41,916 bases of DNA from a virus. Made by a program: the position numbers and the translations under genes. The DNA lies in the IMG/VR virus record IMGVR_UViG_3300029258_001351, positions 1-41,916 of that record. One strand, given 5' to 3'. Positions 3,096-14,200 of the stretch are shown in pieces; within the stretch, counting starts at the first letter, position 1, and every line of letters starts with the position of its first letter. The notes under the pieces are model-generated. The model worked only from the letters and a program-made list of their open reading frames with translations, searched no databases and had not been told where the DNA came from.

Positions 3096-3878
3096 TCACC
3101 CATCCTGCACCTCGAACAGTGTCTTTTGCCCCGCTTTCAGTTCCTTCACTGATACGCCTTTCTCGGTTGCCTCAAGTCGCTTGGCCGCTATGGCGCAATA
3201 CTTTTCCTCGATCTCGATCAGTACGCACTTCCGCCCCAGTTGCTTGGCCGCCACCCCCGTCGTCCCCGAGCCTGCGAAGGGGTCGAGGACTACGGCATTC
3301 TCTGGCGTCAAAGCCGAGACGAGCACCAGCATCGGCTCCAGCGGTTTCTCGGTTTCGTGTCCGTGCCCTGCGCCAAGCTGATTCGGCGTCATGCCGATCC
3401 AGCGGTTAGGACATGCCCCACCGCCATACCAATGCCTGCGACCATTGCGCTTTTCCGCGATGACGCATTCCTCTACCGCAGAAGCAAAAAGCGGCCGAGG
3501 TGTCGGCGCTACAGACGCCTTGACTAAGTAGTATTTGTGCCAAGGAGTAACGCCACAGGCCTTCAGCGACTCGATAGCCTCCCCGCTTGTTGCCAGGTCC
3601 AGAAATATCGCGACATGCCCACCATCGCACAATGCCCGCGGAAGCAGCAGCGGGAACCAATCGTATGGACCGCTTGCCGCGTTAAATCCTTCGGTGCCCC
3701 TAAGAGAGTCGCGGCGCTTGCCGTGCGCAAATACAGCCCCTTGCGGTATCCCATACGGCGGATCGGTCAGCACGAGGTCGATCGACCCCTCGGGTATCAA
3801 CGGCAGCAGCTCCCGGCAGTCGCCGTGGTAGAGGACCACGTCAACGTCGGCGTAGTATGGCTCGACGTTGGGGATCAT
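3096..3878 (-). CDS. DNA methyltransferase, beta class (DPPY)
   Basis: This is a 260-residue AdoMet-dependent DNA amino-methyltransferase. The catalytic motif LVLTDPPYGIPQG is near residues 33-45, and the AdoMet-binding motif VVLDPFAGSGTTGVAA is near residues 205-220. This is beta-class order and a normal length for the N4/N6-methylase family (PF01555). DPPY fits adenine or cytosine amino methylation. It is the second methyltransferase of the window; the different catalytic tetrad suggests a different specificity. Its ATG at 3876-3878 directly follows the stop of a 24-codon gene, and no restriction endonuclease is adjacent. Confidence 0.92.
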   Translation of the reverse strand: MIPNVEPYYADVDVVLYHGDCRELLPLIPEGSIDLVLTDPPYGIPQGAVFAHGKRRDSLRGTEGFNAASGPYDWFPLLLPRALCDGGHVAIFLDLATSGEAIESLKACGVTPWHKYYLVKASVAPTPRPLFASAVEECVIAEKRNGRRHWYGGGACPNRWIGMTPNQLGAGHGHETEKPLEPMLVLVSALTPENAVVLDPFAGSGTTGVAAKQLGRKCVLIEIEEKYCAIAAKRLEATEKGVSVKELKAGQKTLFEVQDG

Positions 3879-4354: not shown

Positions 4355-5211
4355 CCTCGCACCCCCTCCACGAAAGCCTTGGCTGCTGGCAACCACGTGT
4401 CCCAGCTCCATTCCTGCTCCCACAGAAACACGGCGGGGATGTACCGCTTGTGCTCGCGGATGAACCTGGCGTGCTGCACGGCCCGCGTCTTGCGGCCGCG
4501 ATAATTACGAGGAGTGTTGTACCACTCGCGGCTCCCGTCCGTCTTTTGCCACCAGCCCGTAAGCGATAGGCAAACGGCTGTCGGTACGCCACTGTGACTC
4601 TTTTCGCTGTAATACGCAGTCGCCTTCCATGAACGCGCATTACGCATAAGCGCTTCGTAATACATCGAGCAACCATAATGCCCGAGTTCGCCGATGTCCG
4701 GAACAAATGGGAAGGGTGAGTCACCAGCCCCCCAAAGCCGGGCGCGGTTGTAAAATAGAATCAACGCCTTCGGGAAGGCCTCGCGTATCGTACGGTAGAG
4801 GCCATCTAGTTTGAGCTGTACGTCCCACTCATTGTCGCCCCTAATCTCCCACCCTGGCTGTTCGTGGTTGAGGAAAACGGCACGGACGGGGACACTAACA
4901 TTGGCTGCCGCCCGCTCAAAAAAGAAGCACCTGTCGGCGATGTCCGCCATGCGCATATGATGTCCGGAACCCCACACCATAGGTAGGAGCGGCGCTAGCC
5001 CCGGCTCTGGCGGCTTGAACGGGTCGAGACGGATAACGACCCCAGCGCCAAGCTCGTGGCACCACTCTAGCATCTTGGTGCGGTAGGGTTCCGCAGCCCA
5101 CAAGTGAACCGTCATGTTGCCCAGCAGCGAGGTCATCTCGCGAAGCTGGTCGTCGGCCAGCGCGCCCTTCGGAATTTGGCACGCTGTGCTAATGGGGGTC
5201 TCGCTCATCAT
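4351..5211 (-). CDS. Putative TIM-barrel-like hydrolase (glycosidase-like), function unproven
   Basis: This is a 286-residue soluble protein. Its strand-ended acidic residues are spaced as in (beta/alpha)8 hydrolases: GVVIRLDPFKPP, RAVFLNHEQPGW, LILFYNRARLWG and a C-terminal IPAVFLWEQEWSWDTW. Glu in FLNHE and in FLWEQEW are the natural candidates for catalytic acids. There is no signal peptide. The gene begins with ATGATG, overlapping the upstream stop as ATGA, and ends in an ATGA overlap with the ASCH gene. A carbohydrate-active-looking enzyme inside a DNA-modification operon is odd; it may act on glycosylated bases, nucleotides or a host polymer. The fold is my inference from pattern only. 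Confidence 0.65.
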   Translation of the reverse strand: MMSETPISTACQIPKGALADDQLREMTSLLGNMTVHLWAAEPYRTKMLEWCHELGAGVVIRLDPFKPPEPGLAPLLPMVWGSGHHMRMADIADRCFFFERAAANVSVPVRAVFLNHEQPGWEIRGDNEWDVQLKLDGLYRTIREAFPKALILFYNRARLWGAGDSPFPFVPDIGELGHYGCSMYYEALMRNARSWKATAYYSEKSHSGVPTAVCLSLTGWWQKTDGSREWYNTPRNYRGRKTRAVQHARFIREHKRYIPAVFLWEQEWSWDTWLPAAKAFVEGVRG

Positions 5212-5474
5212 AGTCTGCAATACTCCATGTAAATTATGTGCTGTGTTTGGGGGGCAAGTAAAAACTCCCACTTGTCCAATAGGGCGTGGCCTGCGAGCAA
5301 AGCGCCACCGCGAAGAGGGTAGGTGGCTACGGTAGACATCCCCAAGGAGTGCTTGCCGTCGGCCAGCACCACGCGGAGGCGATACTGCTCTAAATGCCGC
5401 GACTTACACAGCATGGCCCGGCTACCACATCCACAGCGGCAACCATGCGGGGTGCATAGGCGTGACAAGCTCAT
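5208..5474 (-). CDS. Small Cys-rich protein, 88 aa
   Basis: The N-terminus carries CTPHGCRCGCGSRAMLC (about residues 7-23), a compact cluster of five cysteines and one histidine that could bind a metal. The remainder (RLRVVLADGKHSLGMSTVAT) looks like a small beta domain. The start and stop both overlap neighbours as ATGA, so it is coupled within the operon. No family was recognised. Confidence 0.65.
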   Translation of the reverse strand: MSLSRLCTPHGCRCGCGSRAMLCKSRHLEQYRLRVVLADGKHSLGMSTVATYPLRGGALLAGHALLDKWEFLLAPQTQHIIYMEYCRL

Positions 5475-5701
5475 CGCCCCACCTTTCGCAGTAACAGCCC
5501 CGTGGCGTTGCAGAGGTGACAGTGCGGAGTCACTGGCACGCGGTCTGCGCACTCAGGGCATGTGAACGCCTCAATCTCGACACCTGAAGGTATCGCGCGG
5601 AGGAGGCGGGATGCCATACTGTTGGAGTCCGCCACAAATGGCTGACCGGGTAGGACCGCATCGCAGACGAGGAAAAACTTTGGTTCGCGATTTGTTGCCA
5701 T
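5471..5701 (-). CDS. Zinc-ribbon protein, 76 aa
   Basis: A CPEC pair at about residues 49-52 and a CHLC pair at about residues 62-65 form a CxxC-x9-CxxC zinc ribbon in the C-terminal half. The start at 5699-5701 overlaps the upstream stop as TGATG. Longer readings upstream are low-complexity shadow sequence and were not used. The likely role is a small nucleic-acid-binding accessory protein. Confidence 0.7.
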   Translation of the reverse strand: MATNREPKFFLVCDAVLPGQPFVADSNSMASRLLRAIPSGVEIEAFTCPECADRVPVTPHCHLCNATGLLLRKVGR

Positions 5702-6276
5702 CACTCCCCCTTTCGCTTGAAAATCAGCGGCCAGTCGGGCAGACGGACCACTTCCGGGAACTTGGGGTACGGTATGCCGTAGAGGTCCAACAGCGCGTGG
5801 GTTGCCTTGAATGCGAAATTGCCCGGCGCCTCGGCCGCGTAGCTGTCCTCGGTGGGCGCAAACCCCGTGGGCTTCTGACCAATCCCGATGAACAGCGTGG
5901 TGTCGAGGCCCTTTGTCAACGCCCATAGCCAGCAGCCCAGCTCGGGCTCCTGCTCGGCCCGCCACTTGCCGTAGGCGATGTGAGCACACCGCAGGATGGC
6001 CTCGGTGGAGGTTTTGCCGATGCCGCGGGCGTATTTGCGGCCAACCTCTGGTTCCCACAAGTCGCATATCGTCTTACCGGGATTGCCGGGATCGTCTGTC
6101 TCGGGGCTAATAAGCGGATAGCGATCCTTCCATGGCGCCTTCTGGTTGTGTTGCATCAGGCCGAAGACTTCTTCGGCATTGTAGGCCTCGGAAATGCACC
6201 CCTGTCGTGTCACCGCGCGACCAAACCGCTTGGCTGCCAGGTCGGCCAACTCCATCTCATCTACGTTTTCGTGCAT
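5701..6276 (-). CDS. Hypothetical phage protein, 191 aa
   Basis: I do not recognise this protein. It is soluble. Recognisable stretches are KTICDLWEPEVGRKYARGIG and a helix containing ILRCAHIAYGKWRAEQE, followed by a hydrophobic segment near LWALTKGLDTTLFIGIG. I chose the ATG at 6274-6276 because GGGAG lies at good distance upstream. It sits 2 nt after the resolvase stop, so it is probably co-translated with DNA-recombination genes. Confidence 0.75.
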   Translation of the reverse strand: MHENVDEMELADLAAKRFGRAVTRQGCISEAYNAEEVFGLMQHNQKAPWKDRYPLISPETDDPGNPGKTICDLWEPEVGRKYARGIGKTSTEAILRCAHIAYGKWRAEQEPELGCWLWALTKGLDTTLFIGIGQKPTGFAPTEDSYAAEAPGNFAFKATHALLDLYGIPYPKFPEVVRLPDWPLIFKRKGE

Positions 6277-7422: not shown

Positions 7423-8727
7423 TCAAAATGAGGTTTTGTCTTGAACGGCTACCTCGGAAAACCTCGTGCTCGGCCGGTGGAACTCCACCGGGATATTCGC
7501 AGTCGGGCCATTCCTGTTTTTCGCCACGATGAGCACAACGGGAATATCGTTGCCTTCCACCCGCCGGTCGGGGCGGATGAATATCACTACATCCGCGTCC
7601 TGCTCGATAGCCCCACTGTCGCGCAGGTGAGCAAGTTTCGGCGTCGTGTCTTCGCGGGTGGCGTCCCGAGTCAATTGTGAAATCACGATGACCGCGGCGC
7701 CGGTATCCACTGCGAGCCGCTTGAATGCGGCAGTCATTGACGCCACTGCAAGGGGCCGAGTGTCATGCTTGCCATCTGGCTCACAGACCTGGAGATAGTC
7801 GATCACGATAAGCCCGGCGCCATGGCGGCGGATGTACTGCCGTGCAGTAGCGACGATGTCCCGCACATACCGAGGCTTATCGTCGATACCCAGCTTGCAA
7901 TCTGCGAGCTGCTTGGCGGCCTCGTTGCAGGCAGTGGCCTGCTCGTCTGGCGAACCTTCCAACAATCGCCGGCTAGACGTGCCAGTCAGATACGCCACCA
8001 CACGGCGAGCGATGGAATCGGCTGACATTTCGAGTGACACGACTAGGCTTGGAATGCCGGCCATGCCCGCGGTTATCGCAAACTGTACGCCCAGGGCGGT
8101 CTTGCCGGCGCTGGTGCCCGCGGCGATGATGGTCAACGCCCCTCGTTCAATGCCACCGATTTTAGCGTCGAACGATGCGATCCCCGTTGGAATGTGCGGC
8201 GGTAGCGCCTTGAGCTTCGCAGGCAACGTTGCCGTCAATTCGTGCATGGATTGGATCTCCTGGCCGCTAGCCGAGCTGATGCCGACGGCCTCAATGAGAT
8301 TGGCGTAGCGGGCACATAGCTCGTCGGGGTCTTCGCCGACAATGTCCGCGGCCTTGCTTCGCAAGTCAGTCCCGAGTGACATGAGCTGCCGACGCCGATG
8401 ATGACCCGCGACGATGGCGGCATAGTGCCCGACGTTGACCCAGTCCGCGAAGCTCTCCGCGAGCTGAATCATGTACGGCTGACCGCCGACCGTATCGAAG
8501 AGATCTCGCCGCCGGAGTTCATTCGAGACGGTCAACAAGTCGATGGCCGTGCCTTGCTGCCACAGCGACACGAGCACGTCATAGAGCTGACCGTGGACGG
8601 GCAAGTAGAACGCCTCACGAGAACCGACGATAGGTGCCGCCGTGTCGACGGCTGCTCGGTCCATCATCATCGAGCCCAGCAGGGCCATTTCGGCATCCAG
8701 GTCTTGGGGTGGCAGGCCGTCAACCAC
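7423..8727 (-). CDS. dnaB: Replicative DNA helicase, DnaB family
   Basis: The 434-residue protein has the DnaB N-terminal helical domain (PPQDLDAEMALLGSMM, residues about 6-110). After a linker comes the RecA-like domain, introduced by IPTGIASFDAKIGGIERG. Walker A is AAGTSAGKT near residue 205, Walker B is GLIVIDYLQ near residue 315, and the motif with VIVISQLTRD follows. It unwinds phage DNA at the fork and would be loaded by the initiator encoded directly upstream, which it overlaps by 8 nt. Length is slightly below cellular DnaB (about 470), as is common in phages. Confidence 0.93.
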   Translation of the reverse strand: MVDGLPPQDLDAEMALLGSMMMDRAAVDTAAPIVGSREAFYLPVHGQLYDVLVSLWQQGTAIDLLTVSNELRRRDLFDTVGGQPYMIQLAESFADWVNVGHYAAIVAGHHRRRQLMSLGTDLRSKAADIVGEDPDELCARYANLIEAVGISSASGQEIQSMHELTATLPAKLKALPPHIPTGIASFDAKIGGIERGALTIIAAGTSAGKTALGVQFAITAGMAGIPSLVVSLEMSADSIARRVVAYLTGTSSRRLLEGSPDEQATACNEAAKQLADCKLGIDDKPRYVRDIVATARQYIRRHGAGLIVIDYLQVCEPDGKHDTRPLAVASMTAAFKRLAVDTGAAVIVISQLTRDATREDTTPKLAHLRDSGAIEQDADVVIFIRPDRRVEGNDIPVVLIVAKNRNGPTANIPVEFHRPSTRFSEVAVQDKTSF

Positions 8728-9556
8728 GACTGGCCTCCCGGTACAGCTTGTCGAAATCGTCGCCGCCCTTGCTGCCGGCAGGTCGGGGCGCTGTCAGCGT
8801 ATCCCAACGTGTGACCAGTACATGCGGACTGGCTTCACTCCAATCGCCAGCCTCGACCTTGGCCTGCACGATGGCCCACTTCTGCCGAATCTGCTCGGGC
8901 GTCGCCTTGCACTTTTTCAGGTCTGCGGCGATGGCCCCGATGTGTTTGCCTTGGCGGCCCGTCAGCTTGGCGCCGACCAAGCTCGGAAAACAGCATTCAA
9001 CCACCGCGTCGAAAATGGGATCGCGTGGACGTTGTGCCGGCGCAGCCGGCAAAGAAGACGTAGTCTTCTTACATTGCGTTGGGTTGGGTTGGGTAGGCAA
9101 GACTGAGTCTGGACATTGTCTGGACATTGTCTGGACATTGTCCGGACAGATCGCTGTTTTTCGCTTACGAGGGGCCTTTTTGGGCGGATCACTACCCTCC
9201 TTGCGCGCCCACCGTTTCTTCACGAAAGTAGGCGCCCAATCGGCGTAGTCATGTATGGCGTAAGTGTCACGGTTGACATTGTCTGGACATTGTCCGGACA
9301 TTGTCTGGACACGATCCAGGAATCCGGCGTCCACTAAAGCGGCAACAAAGACGGTCGGGTCGCCATCCCACCGGGCAGACTGGGCAATCTCGCGATCATC
9401 CCAGCCGGGAAGTACTCCATCACGCCCAATCGATGGCGTGTCATAGACCGCCCACCATAGGTGCTCAAGGAGTCCGACAGCCTCCGGCCGAGAACGCCTC
9501 AGGCGATTGACGAGGTCCAGGAGCTTGCTGTGCCGTTTTAGGCTACTGTGCGCCAT
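8720..9556 (-). CDS. Replication initiator / helicase-loader-like protein containing internal iterons
   Basis: The 278-residue protein starts with a winged-helix-like N-terminus (LLDLVNRLRRSRPEAVGLLEH, then IAQSARWDGDPTVFVAALVDAGFLD), the layout of phage replisome organisers. A variable middle (residues 80-180) is followed by a C-terminal helical domain (GRQGKHIGAIAADLKKCKAT). It lies directly upstream of the DnaB gene with an 8-nt overlap, the classic initiator-helicase order. The middle is encoded over two clusters of 11-bp direct repeats, so its peptide repeats look like a by-product of DNA-level repeats. By analogy with lambda O, the replication origin may lie inside this gene. Confidence 0.8.
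   Translation of the reverse strand: MAHSSLKRHSKLLDLVNRLRRSRPEAVGLLEHLWWAVYDTPSIGRDGVLPGWDDREIAQSARWDGDPTVFVAALVDAGFLDRVQTMSGQCPDNVNRDTYAIHDYADWAPTFVKKRWARKEGSDPPKKAPRKRKTAICPDNVQTMSRQCPDSVLPTQPNPTQCKKTTSSLPAAPAQRPRDPIFDAVVECCFPSLVGAKLTGRQGKHIGAIAADLKKCKATPEQIRQKWAIVQAKVEAGDWSEASPHVLVTRWDTLTAPRPAGSKGGDDFDKLYREASRG
9107..9150. repeat. Iteron cluster 1 (four 11-bp units)
   Basis: Four head-to-tail 11-bp units begin at 9107, 9118, 9129 and 9140. The unit is GTCTGGACATT, identical in the first three, and the last is GTCCGGACAGA. Each contains the near-palindrome TGTCTGGACA. The 11-bp period places every copy on one face of the helix and is out of phase with codons. Confidence 0.9.
9272..9313. 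repeat. Iteron cluster 2 (three and a part 11-bp units)
   Basis: Three full units at 9281, 9292 and 9303 (GTCTGGACATT, GTCCGGACATT, GTCTGGACACG) follow a partial unit ending at 9280. They are the same repeat as cluster 1, about 120 bp away, inside the same gene. The centre of the middle unit, TGTCCGGACA, is a perfect palindrome. Confidence 0.9.
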
Positions 9557-9568
9557 CCCTGGCGTCTC

Positions 9569-10693
9569 CTACGCTGGCAGGGCATCGCGGATGCTCTGCA
9601 ACTCTGCGGGGTCGGCCACTTGCCGGACCTCCAGAATGTCTTTCATGCCGAGATTCTCGATGACGGGGTCACGTTCATCTTGCGGCACCTTGGCGAACGC
9701 TGCGATAATGGCGTCCTGGGCCGCTCGTGCCGGGTCGGCCTGCCCCTTCAGTGCCTCAACCTGTCTGGCCTGCTCGCCGGCGGGGACGGAGGGCTTCTCC
9801 GGTTCGGGCTTGGCCTTCCGCTTTCGCCGGCCGTTCCCCTTGCCCTTGCCCTTGCCCTTAGCCGCCATGAACTGGTCGAGCTTGCCGGGGGCGGGGGTTT
9901 TCGCGGGCGGCTCGGATGCGGGCTCTCCGAACAGTTCCGCAACGGTAGCCTCCCCCTGCTCGATGCTGTTCCAGATGCCCACGAGGTGCCGGCGGTCCTC
10001 TTTCGTGAACGACTCAGTACGCTTACCAATGAGCGTTTCGAGCTGTTCCTGGTCGATGTCCTTCTCTGAGAAGCTGGCTATGAGCTTTTGGATGGTGCTC
10101 TCGTCCAGGAATTCGTCCAGTTGCTCATCCACGCACTGCATGAGTTCGGATCGTAGGCCCGGCGGGACCGACCGCAGGATGCACTCGCGGAGCAATTTGG
10201 AGCCCATCGCCTCGCACACGACGTTGAAGAAACGGTCATCGGAGTGTCGGCCCAGGCCACCGCTGGACCGCTTGTAGTTCTTGCTTACTACGCTGCTTTT
10301 CTGCCAAATGCGGCCGGACTGAAAATCCGTAAAGACCGCATCGACACGGGCCGTGTCGTTGTCGAGGGGCGTGACCTCAGTGCGGACTCGGTTGTACTGG
10401 TAGGAGCACGCCACCGCCTCTGCCGCCCGGACTGACAGCCCGCGGGCATACTTCATCTTGCCGCCGTCGCCCTTGCCTACGGGCTTGGAATAGACCGCAG
10501 ACTTGGCAAAACTCTTGAAAGTTTGCAGTTGGTGTTTGATGTCTGCGAGCACTTCGCCATAGTCGCGGGGGTGCGCTGCGGCCAGGGCCATGATATTCTC
10601 ATTCTCCATCTTCACGATGGCCAAATCGCGGGGCAGGTTGGCGACGGCCCCGACCTGTGCCTCCATCGCGTCCTGTTTCACCAGCTCTGTCAT
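9569..10693 (-). CDS. Probable single-strand annealing / recombination protein
   Basis: The 374-residue protein follows the exonuclease gene with an ATGA overlap, the usual order of a phage two-component recombination pair. Its core (about residues 55-160) reads KMKYARGLSVRAAEAVA and VDAVFTDFQSG, then FFNVVCEAMGSKLLRECI. A region near residues 195-240 (LETLIGKRTESFTKEDRRHL, then SIEQGEATVAELF) matches the tail often seen in phage recombination proteins. The C-terminal linker KGKGKGKGNGRRKRK is very basic. The annealing role is inferred from position and pattern; the exact superfamily (RecT, Erf, Sak) is uncertain. The start at 10691-10693 is chosen over a longer low-complexity extension. Confidence 0.7.
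   Translation of the reverse strand: MTELVKQDAMEAQVGAVANLPRDLAIVKMENENIMALAAAHPRDYGEVLADIKHQLQTFKSFAKSAVYSKPVGKGDGGKMKYARGLSVRAAEAVACSYQYNRVRTEVTPLDNDTARVDAVFTDFQSGRIWQKSSVVSKNYKRSSGGLGRHSDDRFFNVVCEAMGSKLLRECILRSVPPGLRSELMQCVDEQLDEFLDESTIQKLIASFSEKDIDQEQLETLIGKRTESFTKEDRRHLVGIWNSIEQGEATVAELFGEPASEPPAKTPAPGKLDQFMAAKGKGKGKGNGRRKRKAKPEPEKPSVPAGEQARQVEALKGQADPARAAQDAIIAAFAKVPQDERDPVIENLGMKDILEVRQVADPAELQSIRDALPA
9836..9857 (-). other. G-quadruplex-capable tract inside the annealing-protein gene
   Basis: On the minus strand the tract reads GGG-CAA-GGG-CAA-GGG-CAA-GGGG, four G-runs with 3-nt loops, encoding the alternating Lys-Gly linker. Confidence 0.6.
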
Positions 10694-11607
10694 TTCGCCT
10701 TGCCTTTCTTGCGTAGGAGGGTCCGCTTTGTGTGCGCCTTTACTACATGCTCGGCCACCTCGCTCGCCTTCCATGTGTACTGTGTCCCATCCGGCAACTG
10801 GCCCACTTCGGCCTCGCCGATGATCTGCTTAATCTTGTTCTCACGCTCAGAGATGCGGGCTTTCAGCTTGGTTGCCGCTCGCTTATATCGCACGAGCTGT
10901 TCGTCCAGCTCACAGGCCGTGCTCGGCATGGCCACGATGACCTTGCGGACGTGGCGGGGGAACATCTTGTGCAGGGTCTCGCGGGCCGACTCGCTCGCAT
11001 CCGGCTCCGGCGGGATGTCCCGCTGGACCAAGTCCCAGAACGCAGACAGTTGCCCGAGCATCCACTCAATGAACGTGTCATGGAGGTCAAGGTCTTTCCA
11101 CAGGAATCGCTGGCCGCCGATGAGTGCAGCGATTGAGCCCCACTCCACGCCCATCGCGGCCATCTCGTGCTGGACCTGGGCCTGAACATAGGCGGGGGGC
11201 TCGTCTTCCCACTGCCCGGCCATGTGGACGCCGACGGTCTTGATCTGGAGGTCACCCAGTGGCCGGGTTTTGGTTTCCTTGACCAACCTGTCCGGCGTGG
11301 CGAGCAGCCATTCAATCTCGGGGGGCCGATAGATCGTGTACTCGCCGGGATTGCGGATGGCGCGGCCGGTTTCCTTCATGTACGCCCGTGCGATCGCAGG
11401 CTCCAACTTGTGGCCCCATTGGACGGCCTCAACTTTTGAGAGGTCGGCTGGTTCAACCTTGCCGGTTTTCTCTGCCCACAGTTCAAGGGCCGATTTGTAT
11501 GGATTCAGGCCGAGGACGGTAGGGCAGTCGCTCGCACCGATCCCCTTCGCTCGCCTTGCCAGCCACTCAGCCTCGTTCTTGCAGCGGATTATCTTAGGGA
11601 ACCGCAC
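10690..11607 (-). CDS. YqaJ-type viral recombinase (lambda exonuclease-like PD-(D/E)XK nuclease)
   Basis: The 305-residue protein has the YqaJ signature in order. GIGASDCPTVLGLNPYKSAL is at residues about 22-41, WGHKLEPAIARAY at about 68-80, the catalytic Asp strand LLATPDRLV at about 102, and DLQIKTVGVHM at about 118. The metal-binding Glu of the E-x-K motif is replaced by Gln (Q-I-K), a variant known in phage YqaJ proteins. YVQAQVQHEMAAMGV then gives the conserved Q-helix. It would resect double-stranded ends 5' to 3' and hand single strands to the annealing protein, with which it shares an ATGA overlap. Confidence 0.92.
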   Translation of the reverse strand: MRFPKIIRCKNEAEWLARRAKGIGASDCPTVLGLNPYKSALELWAEKTGKVEPADLSKVEAVQWGHKLEPAIARAYMKETGRAIRNPGEYTIYRPPEIEWLLATPDRLVKETKTRPLGDLQIKTVGVHMAGQWEDEPPAYVQAQVQHEMAAMGVEWGSIAALIGGQRFLWKDLDLHDTFIEWMLGQLSAFWDLVQRDIPPEPDASESARETLHKMFPRHVRKVIVAMPSTACELDEQLVRYKRAATKLKARISERENKIKQIIGEAEVGQLPDGTQYTWKASEVAEHVVKAHTKRTLLRKKGKAK

Positions 11608-12274: not shown

Positions 12275-12494
12275 CAGTCAATCCTTTCCACTCGGGGGCG
12301 GGGTTGTTCGTCTTCGCGTTCTCGCGTTCGTCTAGCATGTCCACGATGAATCGAAAATGCGATTCAAGGCAGCGCAGGTTCACATGAAACTGGTGTGTCG
12401 GTTGCCGTTCCCAACCGCGCAGTACCCCAGCGGCATGCCGGATCGAACGCTCCAGGATTGTGCAGTGCGGACAGCCATCCATCTCATCACTCAC
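12063..12494 (-). CDS. Hypothetical protein, 143 aa (C-terminus doubtful)
   Basis: The N-terminal part is convincing: GCPHCTILERSIRHAAG carries a CxxC, followed by LRCLESHFRFIVDMLDEREN. The last 40 residues are rich in Arg, Pro and His and look like shadow sequence, while the overlapping +1 frame looks coding there. The start overlaps the upstream gene by 8 nt. The family is unknown. A frameshift near 12150-12270 would fuse this N-terminus to the 12029 frame. Confidence 0.55.
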   Translation of the reverse strand: MSDEMDGCPHCTILERSIRHAAGVLRGWERQPTHQFHVNLRCLESHFRFIVDMLDERENAKTNNPAPEWKGLTVERNQTVLHCVLSVSNKRHGVAGAGFGCYAAGLFEFVRPDTHGPSKRPAALDLHRPARRASPVLHLRFTS

Positions 12495-13020
12495 CGTTAG
12501 TGGGTTGCGGCTTCCCGTTCACCATCGCCGCCAGCAGCCGCTTGGGGTCTGTCGTAAGTGTCGTGCCTGTGGCAGCAAGGGCCTTCGTCGTGTTGGAGCT
12601 GGCGCAGAGCGCCAAGACTGCGAGCTGCGATTTCGTTGCCAGGAAGTCGGCGCGTCTGTCCTCTGGCAGCTTGTCGATGTCAACGCACATTGCCTGTCGT
12701 GTGGTGCGTCGGGTTTTACGGGCAATGCTCTTACGGCCGGCATGCACGACAGCCTCGGATTCAGTACCCTTGTCGAGACGACGGATGTGGCGCTTGCCTG
12801 ATATGCGTTGCCAGATGATGCCGTGCTCTGTTTCGATGTGTTGGAGGGCTGTCTGCAAGTTGCTGTAGCCAGCTTGGCCCACGCCTGTCGGTCGGTGACA
12901 GACAGCTTCTAGCTGCGCATCGGTAACTTCGTTGAGCGGAGTCTCCAGTAGGTACTGAATGATACTGTTCGTACAAACGCCGTAGCGTCCTATCTGCGGT
13001 ACTCGTTTGGGTTCATCCAT
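12487..13020 (-). CDS. Hypothetical protein downstream of GAC-array 1, 177 aa
   Basis: The 177-residue basic protein begins MDEPKRVPQIGRYGVCTNSI. It has a helical N-terminal domain that reads like a winged helix (LEAVCHRPTGVGQAGYSNLQ, then TEHGIIWQRISGKRHIRRL). A basic stretch (KSIARKTRRTTRQAM) follows. DNA or RNA binding is plausible; the family is unknown. GGAG precedes ATG 13018-13020, and the 5' leader is the long GACNN array ending 24 nt upstream of the start. Confidence 0.7.
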   Translation of the reverse strand: MDEPKRVPQIGRYGVCTNSIIQYLLETPLNEVTDAQLEAVCHRPTGVGQAGYSNLQTALQHIETEHGIIWQRISGKRHIRRLDKGTESEAVVHAGRKSIARKTRRTTRQAMCVDIDKLPEDRRADFLATKSQLAVLALCASSNTTKALAATGTTLTTDPKRLLAAMVNGKPQPTNGE

Positions 13021-13044: not shown

Positions 13045-13243
13045 GTCTCGTCTCGTCCTGTCTCGTCTCGTCACGTCGTGTCTCGTCAGGTCGCGTCCAG
13101 TCATGTCATGTCCTGTCGGGTCTCGTCAAAGTCCGCGTCCCCTCACAAATCTTGTCTTGTCTTGTCTCGTCCTGTCGAGTCGGGTCGTGTCTCGTCACGT
13201 CAGGTCTCGTCGGGTCGAGTCTTGTCGCGTCGTGTCGCGTCCT
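13045..13243 (-). repeat. GAC-pentad array 1 (17 + 18 units), in leader of 12487-13020
   Basis: On the plus strand GTC recurs every 5 nt with two variable bases: 17 consecutive GTCNN units at 13045-13129, a 24-nt spacer, and 18 units at 13154-13243. The transcript (minus) therefore carries NNGAC repeats. The NN pairs vary widely while GAC is invariant in all 35 units. The array touches the stop codon of the upstream gene (13242-13244) and ends just before the ribosome site of the downstream gene. Confidence 0.9.
13079..13206. repeat. 128-bp perfect direct repeat, copy 1
   Basis: Bases 13079-13206 are identical to 13893-14020, with a constant offset of 814 bp. The repeat includes parts of both GTCNN sub-arrays and the spacer between them. 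Confidence 0.9.
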
Positions 13244-13865
13244 AGCTTTCCACGACCGCGAAGGTAAATTCCAACACCTTAAACCTTCCCCAATAGCCGT
13301 TGCGCCGTGGTCGAAAGTATCCCATTCCAATCAACTGCCCAGCGTGCACTAGGCTACCCTTCAGGTGTTCCGGCGTCACGACCGGGTCCATGATGTAGAC
13401 GCTCCCGGATACGACCCACCCCTCGGCAATGAAGGGGAAGTGCTTCCACACGCGCTTGCCGCCACCGGGAGTGCCAGTCGAAGACACAAATAGACGTTCC
13501 GCCTGGACGTCCTTCGCGTAAACAGTCGGCCCGAAATAGAGCCGGTCGACAACCATAATGCCAGCTTCGTAGTGCTTTGTGTAGGTGGCGTTGCGTTTCC
13601 CCGGTACGCTCTGCGAGCGATACTTTGCATCATCTGTCAAGCAGTGTTTGAGTGAATTCGGTGGGATGTAGACCTTGCCCTCTCCGTCAGCGTGTATCCG
13701 TTCTCGCCAAATGCGGGCTTCAAACTGATCGTCCGTCTCCTTGTCGTTCTTCTTGCTCTGGATTGCACGTGAAAAGCCGAAGGGTGCAATACCCTCCAGC
13801 TTGAAGTTGCATTGAATGACGTCGCTTTGAATGACTTCGCCCTGGCTCGCCTCAGTCTGTGCCAT
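13242..13865 (-). CDS. Phage protein of unknown function bracketed by GAC arrays, 207 aa
   Basis: The protein has strands and loops such as FKLEGIAPFGFSRAIQ, a conserved-looking VYIPPNSLKHCLTDDAKY and a C-terminal GQLIGMGYFRPRRNGYWGRF followed by KVLEF. The glycine-rich turn before a final G-R-F/E-V strand resembles the ferredoxin-like (RAMP/Cas7-type) fold pattern and is also seen in unannotated phage proteins of this size. I regard that as a weak structural hint only. AAAGGG precedes ATG 13863-13865. The gene lies between two copies of a 128-bp repeat and near the recombination genes. Confidence 0.75.
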   Translation of the reverse strand: MAQTEASQGEVIQSDVIQCNFKLEGIAPFGFSRAIQSKKNDKETDDQFEARIWRERIHADGEGKVYIPPNSLKHCLTDDAKYRSQSVPGKRNATYTKHYEAGIMVVDRLYFGPTVYAKDVQAERLFVSSTGTPGGGKRVWKHFPFIAEGWVVSGSVYIMDPVVTPEHLKGSLVHAGQLIGMGYFRPRRNGYWGRFKVLEFTFAVVES

Positions 13866-13888
13866 GTGTAGGCCCTTTCAAAAATCTT

Positions 13889-14027
13889 GTCTTGTCTCGT
13901 CAGGTCGCGTCCAGTCATGTCATGTCCTGTCGGGTCTCGTCAAAGTCCGCGTCCCCTCACAAATCTTGTCTTGTCTTGTCTCGTCCTGTCGAGTCGGGTC
14001 GTGTCTCGTCACGTCAGGTCCCGTCAC
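13889..14027 (-). repeat. GAC-pentad array 2 (11 + 12 units), in leader of 13242-13865
   Basis: There are 11 GTCNN units at 13889-13943, the same 24-nt spacer as in array 1, and 12 units at 13968-14027 (plus-strand reading). The transcript carries NNGAC repeats in the 5' leader of the 207-aa gene, ending about 12 nt before its AAAGGG ribosome site. The array begins 3 nt after the T-tract of the intrinsic terminator at 14031-14066. Confidence 0.9.
13893..14020. repeat. 128-bp perfect direct repeat, copy 2
   Basis: This copy is identical to 13079-13206. The repeat pair encloses the complete 207-aa gene. Confidence 0.9.
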
Positions 14028-14030
14028 TCC

Positions 14031-14066
14031 AAAAAACTAGGCGCCTCGATGAGCCGAGACGCCTAG
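14031..14066 (-). terminator. Strong intrinsic terminator
   Basis: Read on the minus strand, a 12-bp stem (CTAGGCGTCTCG / CGAGGCGCCTAG, one G-T wobble) closes a 6-nt loop and is followed directly by TTTTTT at 14036-14031. The stop codon of the small membrane protein (14063-14065) lies inside the stem. It would end transcripts from the control region before the DNA-metabolism module. Confidence 0.88.
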
Positions 14067-14200
14067 CCGGAGGGGAAAGAAGCCAAAATTAGTGCTAGCA
14101 GCAAGACCGCGCCAATGGCTGCCGCCACAATGTACGCTGAGAACTCTACTGACCCACCGCTCCGTCCTTGACCGCCATCGACGGGCGGGGGGTCTGTCAG
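14063..14200 (-). CDS. Small membrane protein, about 45 aa, non-ATG start
   Basis: The frame ends with VEFSAYIVAAAIGAVLLLAL and a short polar tail, a clear single transmembrane helix preceded by a Pro/Gly-rich segment (TDPPPVDGGQGRSGG). No ATG, GTG or TTG lies close upstream in frame. A CTG at 14198-14200 overlaps the upstream TGA stop (CTGA), mirroring the ATGA couplings elsewhere. Alternatives are a -1 frameshift from the 111-aa gene, or a long 167-codon frame from 14566 that looks like shadow sequence. It may be holin-like. Confidence 0.5.
   Translation of the reverse strand: MTDPPPVDGGQGRSGGSVEFSAYIVAAAIGAVLLLALILASFPSG

Follow-up and report, generated by a model that had tools for sequence, protein, structure and literature searches.

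The GAC arrays of the window

In a virus sequence of 41,916 nucleotides (IMG/VR record IMGVR_UViG_3300029258_001351, positions 1 to 41,916; referred to here in its full length as the window), the triplet GAC recurs every five nucleotides in front of two genes, which raises the question of what reads these arrays and what they are for. On the minus strand, GAC is found at this step without exception in four runs of 17, 18, 11 and 12 GACNN units, and each of the four arrays contains 8-9 different dinucleotides at the NN positions, in agreement with the preliminary description of this DNA. The reversed pattern has no match anywhere in the window.

All elements of the locus lie on the minus strand. 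Read in that direction, it begins with repeat tract A1 (13968-14025; 12 units, terminal NN = AA-AA), a putative vrRNA tract like the three that follow. A 26-nt spacer or tail (AAGATTTGTGAGGGGACGCGGACTTT, 13942-13967) lies between A1 and tract A2 (13889-13941; 11 units), which runs into AAGATTTTT and the ribosome site of vipr (13242-13865). The 207-aa product of vipr (phrog_4652) is a RAMP protein of predicted Cas7/Csm3 fold and a predicted binder of the repeat RNA. Tract B1 (13154-13241; 18 units) begins directly after the vipr stop codon; an identical copy of the 26-nt spacer or tail (13128-13153) separates it from tract B2 (13045-13127; 17 units), which is followed by AAGATTTTC and the ribosome site of vap (12487-13020). 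The vap gene encodes a 177-aa protein with predicted winged helix and coiled coil, related to Vap1 of phage SUSP1. The 3' end of each of the two array blocks is located 23-24 nt upstream of the start codon of vipr or vap, as expected from the earlier observation that the arrays occupy leaders and end before ribosome sites.

Comparison of the blocks revealed 128 identical nucleotides (13079-13206 = 13893-14020), the result of duplication or recombination between them. Because of this identity the blocks do not count as independent, one having arisen in part as a copy of the other. The window arrays show a constant AA-AA-GATTT at the end and a 26-nt spacer; we recognised no 3' tail with structure there, and the window RNA has no Rfam match. 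In four related loci (L012, L023, L052, L113), one identical 35-nt spacer (GTGTTTATCACTCAGACAAGGAGGCTGTTTTTCCT) lies between GAC arrays of 18-24 units and is a clear candidate for a vrRNA tail.

Inspection by eye also showed a terminator-like hairpin of 12 bp followed by six T (14033-14068, minus strand), which is absent from the scan output. It lies a few nucleotides upstream of A1 on the same strand, with no space for a separate promoter.

GAC arrays are a class linked to two gene families

A scan of viral contigs with (GACNN)7GAC detected at least 119 stretches. Arrays with five or more different NN numbered at least 140, in at least 60 loci, compared with three for the reversed control (CAGNN)7CAG, which makes variable-NN arrays at least about 47 times commoner for GAC and upholds the earlier proposal that GAC itself is selected.

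The GAC arrays with drifting NN that the preliminary description had suggested seeking beside the same genes elsewhere were indeed present. Clustering of ORFs from 61 array-bearing loci among the matches listed placed the vipr family of the window in 36 and its vap family in 24 of these loci. The next unrelated ORF family occurred in 7 of the 61; one more large cluster consisted of translated array sequence. Starting from the vipr protein alone, we retrieved 80 viral loci and scanned them for a fixed triplet kept over six or more units, comparing periods 4-8. Period-5 arrays adjoin vipr in 46 of the 80 relatives (118 arrays in total), whereas periods 4, 6, 7 and 8 gave no array at any of these loci, and a vap gene is present at 69 of them. 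The relatives have several arrays per genome, both before and after genes, and in at least four (L019, L041, L056, L075) arrays and vipr are on opposite strands. GGC or GGT arrays are also located at the homologous gene in five cultured phages, namely LESphi2, Trine, DSL-LC04, Donkeykong and Brocalys. Most vipr loci use one triplet only, which differs between relatives.

These distributions bear on the simplest explanation, that the arrays are functionless pentanucleotide slippage repeats. The 128-nt segment common to both blocks would suit such an origin; however, the excess of variable-NN arrays over the reversed control, their tie to two gene families and a triplet that is constant within a genome (single at most loci) but changes between relatives make slippage alone scarcely credible.

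Vipr is predicted to be a Cas7-like RAMP protein

Neither the vipr nor the vap product matched Pfam, and blastn of the region against phages gave no match. A profile of the Vipr family searched against solved proteins revealed one good match, 36pp 'SUSP1 Vipr protein' (E 1.3e-10). The family profiles scored 60 bits with SUSP1 Vipr and 30 bits with SUSP1 Vap1, and vipr, vap1 and GGY arrays are all in place in the SUSP1 record. For the AlphaFold2 model of window Vipr (pLDDT 95), the best 50 Foldseek matches were all Cas7-type, with Csm3 and type VII Cas7 as nearest folds, and VIA-align gave a Z of 13.6 to Csm3 over 165 residues. According to this model, window Vipr is a Cas7-like RAMP protein with a G-loop; residues G176, G180, R185 and G193 are invariant in the family. 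The predicted structure of window Vap shows a winged helix and a coiled coil (pLDDT 89), with weak structural matches.

VIPR (Viral Interference Programmable Repeat), published in 2026, is a CRISPR-like system that phages direct against rival phages (PMC13142463). The paper describes two protein parts, Vipr, which is an ancestral RAMP encoded by the phage, and the accessory Vap, together with vrRNAs in which GGY and NN motifs alternate and which read double-stranded DNA with a one-base skip; the skip is experimental for GGY systems. Its text centres on GGY and allows some types 'a related consensus' (fig. S17). From the profile match of Vipr to SUSP1 Vipr and the match of vap to SUSP1 Vap1, we therefore conclude with high confidence that the window locus is a phage VIPR system with the triplet GAC, in which the arrays are very probably guide RNAs.

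In common with type II VIPR of phage SUSP1, as far as the available text describes it (PMC13142463), the window has a phage-borne two-gene locus with Vipr and Vap homologues and several arrays between genes, whose tandem 5-nt units combine a fixed triplet with a hypervariable NN. A strict GGY consensus does not describe the window arrays, whose triplet is GAC, and their relatives use at least eight triplets. Compared with the same source, the window also lacks a recognised pseudoknot tail, and its tracts comprise 11-18 units as against 9-16. Class 1 CRISPR RAMPs (Cas7, Csm3, type VII Cas7) share the predicted fold, the G-loop and a guide RNA held at a fixed step. In contrast to them, window Vipr, at about 10% identity, goes with 5-nt units containing a fixed triplet, not 6-nt steps on free sequence; no cas genes were found among the scanned ORFs, and no CRISPR repeat-spacer array was seen, the units being 5 nt.

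Leader regulation and the proposed mechanism

The preliminary description had likened the arrays to the leader sites of TRAP (MtrB) of Bacillus, likewise a protein multimer reading spaced RNA triplets, and had proposed that a multimeric RNA-binding protein controls the two genes. In this alternative, a ring or filament protein, possibly Vipr, would bind the GAC arrays and block translation of vipr and vap. Array ends at both ribosome sites fit autoregulation, and Vipr feedback is plausible because one of the two led genes encodes Vipr. TRAP, however, has another fold and reads (G/U)AG, whereas the window triplets are all GAC and the fillers are hypervariable; the ten ORFs around the arrays gave no Pfam match to TRAP, and neither array-linked protein is TRAP. 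Further arguments against the alternative are the several arrays per genome, also after genes, the opposite strand of arrays and vipr in the four relatives mentioned above, and the published relatives, which the available text presents as DNA-targeting guides (PMC13142463). We consider a TRAP-like leader switch as the main function very unlikely. Of the earlier proposal, a protein of multimer-forming type with a subunit step of about one unit is retained, its own gene lying directly downstream of an array, but as a RAMP (Cas7/Csm3) protein in place of a TRAP-like one. Since arrays also follow genes and are opposite in strand in at least four relatives, leader regulation is not regarded as the core function; that of vipr and vap may coexist as a side effect.

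Under the VIPR reading, the window arrays would be transcribed into vrRNAs, along which Vipr subunits, as Cas7-like RAMPs, would line up with one subunit per 5-nt unit. Each subunit would grip GAC by its G-loop and two beta strands and leave NN exposed; here the fold comes from prediction and the GAC contacts are suggested by the covariation described below. Jointly, the NN pairs would read double-stranded DNA as NN-x-NN-x, the skipped base usually being a codon wobble base. The one-base skip is based on experiment for GGY (PMC13142463, available text) and on natural targets for CGC, and we infer it for GAC. The bound complex would most likely repress genes of rival phages or prophages, with the DNA-binding Vap helping.

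Triplets switch frequently and covary with Vipr residues

A triplet could be assigned in 113 of 136 vipr loci, opposite-strand GTC reads being counted as GAC of the other strand. Across viruses we found GGC, CGC, GAC, GTT, CTC, GGT, CAC and AGC; the first six are the commonest at the 80 vipr loci of viral contigs, and CAC and AGC were added by genome loci. The third base is a pyrimidine in all assigned triplets except one doubtful AGG. At least 27-29 triplet switches were placed on the tree, where GAC appears in several lineages, including the SUSP1-like clade.

Across 78 Vipr proteins, the second base shows its strongest association with columns 183, located in the G-loop, and 123, and the first base with columns 127 and 143. 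Arginine 183 is present in all 37 proteins whose triplet has G as second base and in 11 of the 41 others; tyrosine 143 occurs in 14 of 20 proteins with first base C and in 1 of 57 with G. In window Vipr these residues are Y183 and F143, which agrees with the expectation for GAC. We used the outlier rank among all columns as evidence for covariation; well-supported branches offer too few phylogenetically independent pairs for a formal test. It is possible, although we would stop short of calling it probable, that the triplet acts as a private loading password: its second base would be specified by residues 183 and 123 and its first by 143 and 127, with a pyrimidine kept in third place, and the frequent changes between eight or more triplets would prevent one VIPR phage from loading the guides of another that infects the same cell. 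If so, mutually orthogonal RNA-guided DNA binders could be obtained by changing few residues.

Natural targets of a CGC system

A prophage of Paracoccus litorisediminis (L322) carries CGC arrays. In 125 Paracoccus genomes, its guide GA-CC-CT-AT-GA-CG-GT-AC-CT-GT, with a degenerate triplet (TGC) in one of its ten units, matched exactly at two places over 20 bases under a one-base skip. Random sequence would give about 0.001 such matches, a figure that base composition could lift several-fold. Both matches lie codon-aligned in a prophage gpA-type terminase ATPase (DPLIERVTLV), and a third terminase homologue matches with 2 mismatches. With a skip of 0 or 2, the NN of this guide had no match at up to 2 mismatches in the Paracoccus genomes, and with a skip of 3 the sole match was the array itself. 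A second guide of L322 matched the catalytic motif of large serine recombinases, read antisense (IYTRKSSE), with 2-3 mismatches of 22 in 23 genomes; in the best match, the only mismatched unit is the one with a degenerate triplet. This is the weaker case because about two unrelated matches are expected at 3 mismatches, and the target, judged by sequence, is probably a serine recombinase.

For GAC, a one-skip search of 2.4 Mb of retrieved loci with 99 guides gave no more matches than shuffled guides did, whichever skip was used, and 8-unit pieces of the window guides and of two L012 guides matched viral contigs without convincing extension; neither these loci nor the contigs yielded a convincing target for any GAC array, including those of the window. 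Four genomes searched with the CAC guide of L317 gave no match. For the terminase and helicase of the window, database matches were remote. A target-free codon-phase test with repeat structure controlled gave 28.9 versus 15.9 ± 5.3 (2/300). The skip-length signal in codon phase is significant against independent draws, but repeated units explain more than half of it, and for this reason we treat the result as weak.

Both the covariation and the terminase matches affect a further explanation, in which Vap or another protein binds the arrays as double-stranded DNA, be it as an operator, a centromere or replication iterons. The predicted winged helix of Vap and the replication and recombination genes near the locus are consistent with it. 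With a 5-bp step, however, each site would face away from the next on the helix, positions in the G-loop and neighbouring strands of a RAMP protein covary with the triplet, and the NN pairs of the CGC relative spell terminase sequence, so that we regard DNA sites as very improbable.

VIPR is a newly described and possibly pre-CRISPR way of reading DNA by RNA. Beyond the main text of PMC13142463, the present data concern the breadth and lability of the triplet, candidate specificity residues, and natural targets for a non-GGY system, namely a prophage terminase and probably a serine recombinase; fig. S17 of that paper may list some of the triplets. With many triplets, candidate residues and natural targets in hand, code and orthogonality are directly testable.

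Genomic surroundings and further loci

Tandem 11-bp repeats (GTCTGGACATT) are located at 9107-9148 and 9275-9311 within a predicted replication initiation gene (8720-9556, minus strand) next to DnaB; they are possible origin iterons. A RecE-like/YqaJ exonuclease is encoded near vipr and vap (10690-11607), and the VIPR locus lies amid replication and recombination genes. Two DNA methyltransferase genes are found at 878-1813 and 3096-3878 of the window.

In Pseudomonas phage LESphi2 (L216), a VIPR-like locus with GGC arrays spans 4504-5983. The phage is a prophage of the Liverpool epidemic strain, and the locus belongs to its immunity and integration region. The Mycobacterium phages Donkeykong and Brocalys (L371, L372; Cheoctovirus), members of the well-studied mycobacteriophages, contain VIPR-like loci that lack annotation and have as many as seven GGC arrays, neighboured by anti-repressor and excisionase genes.
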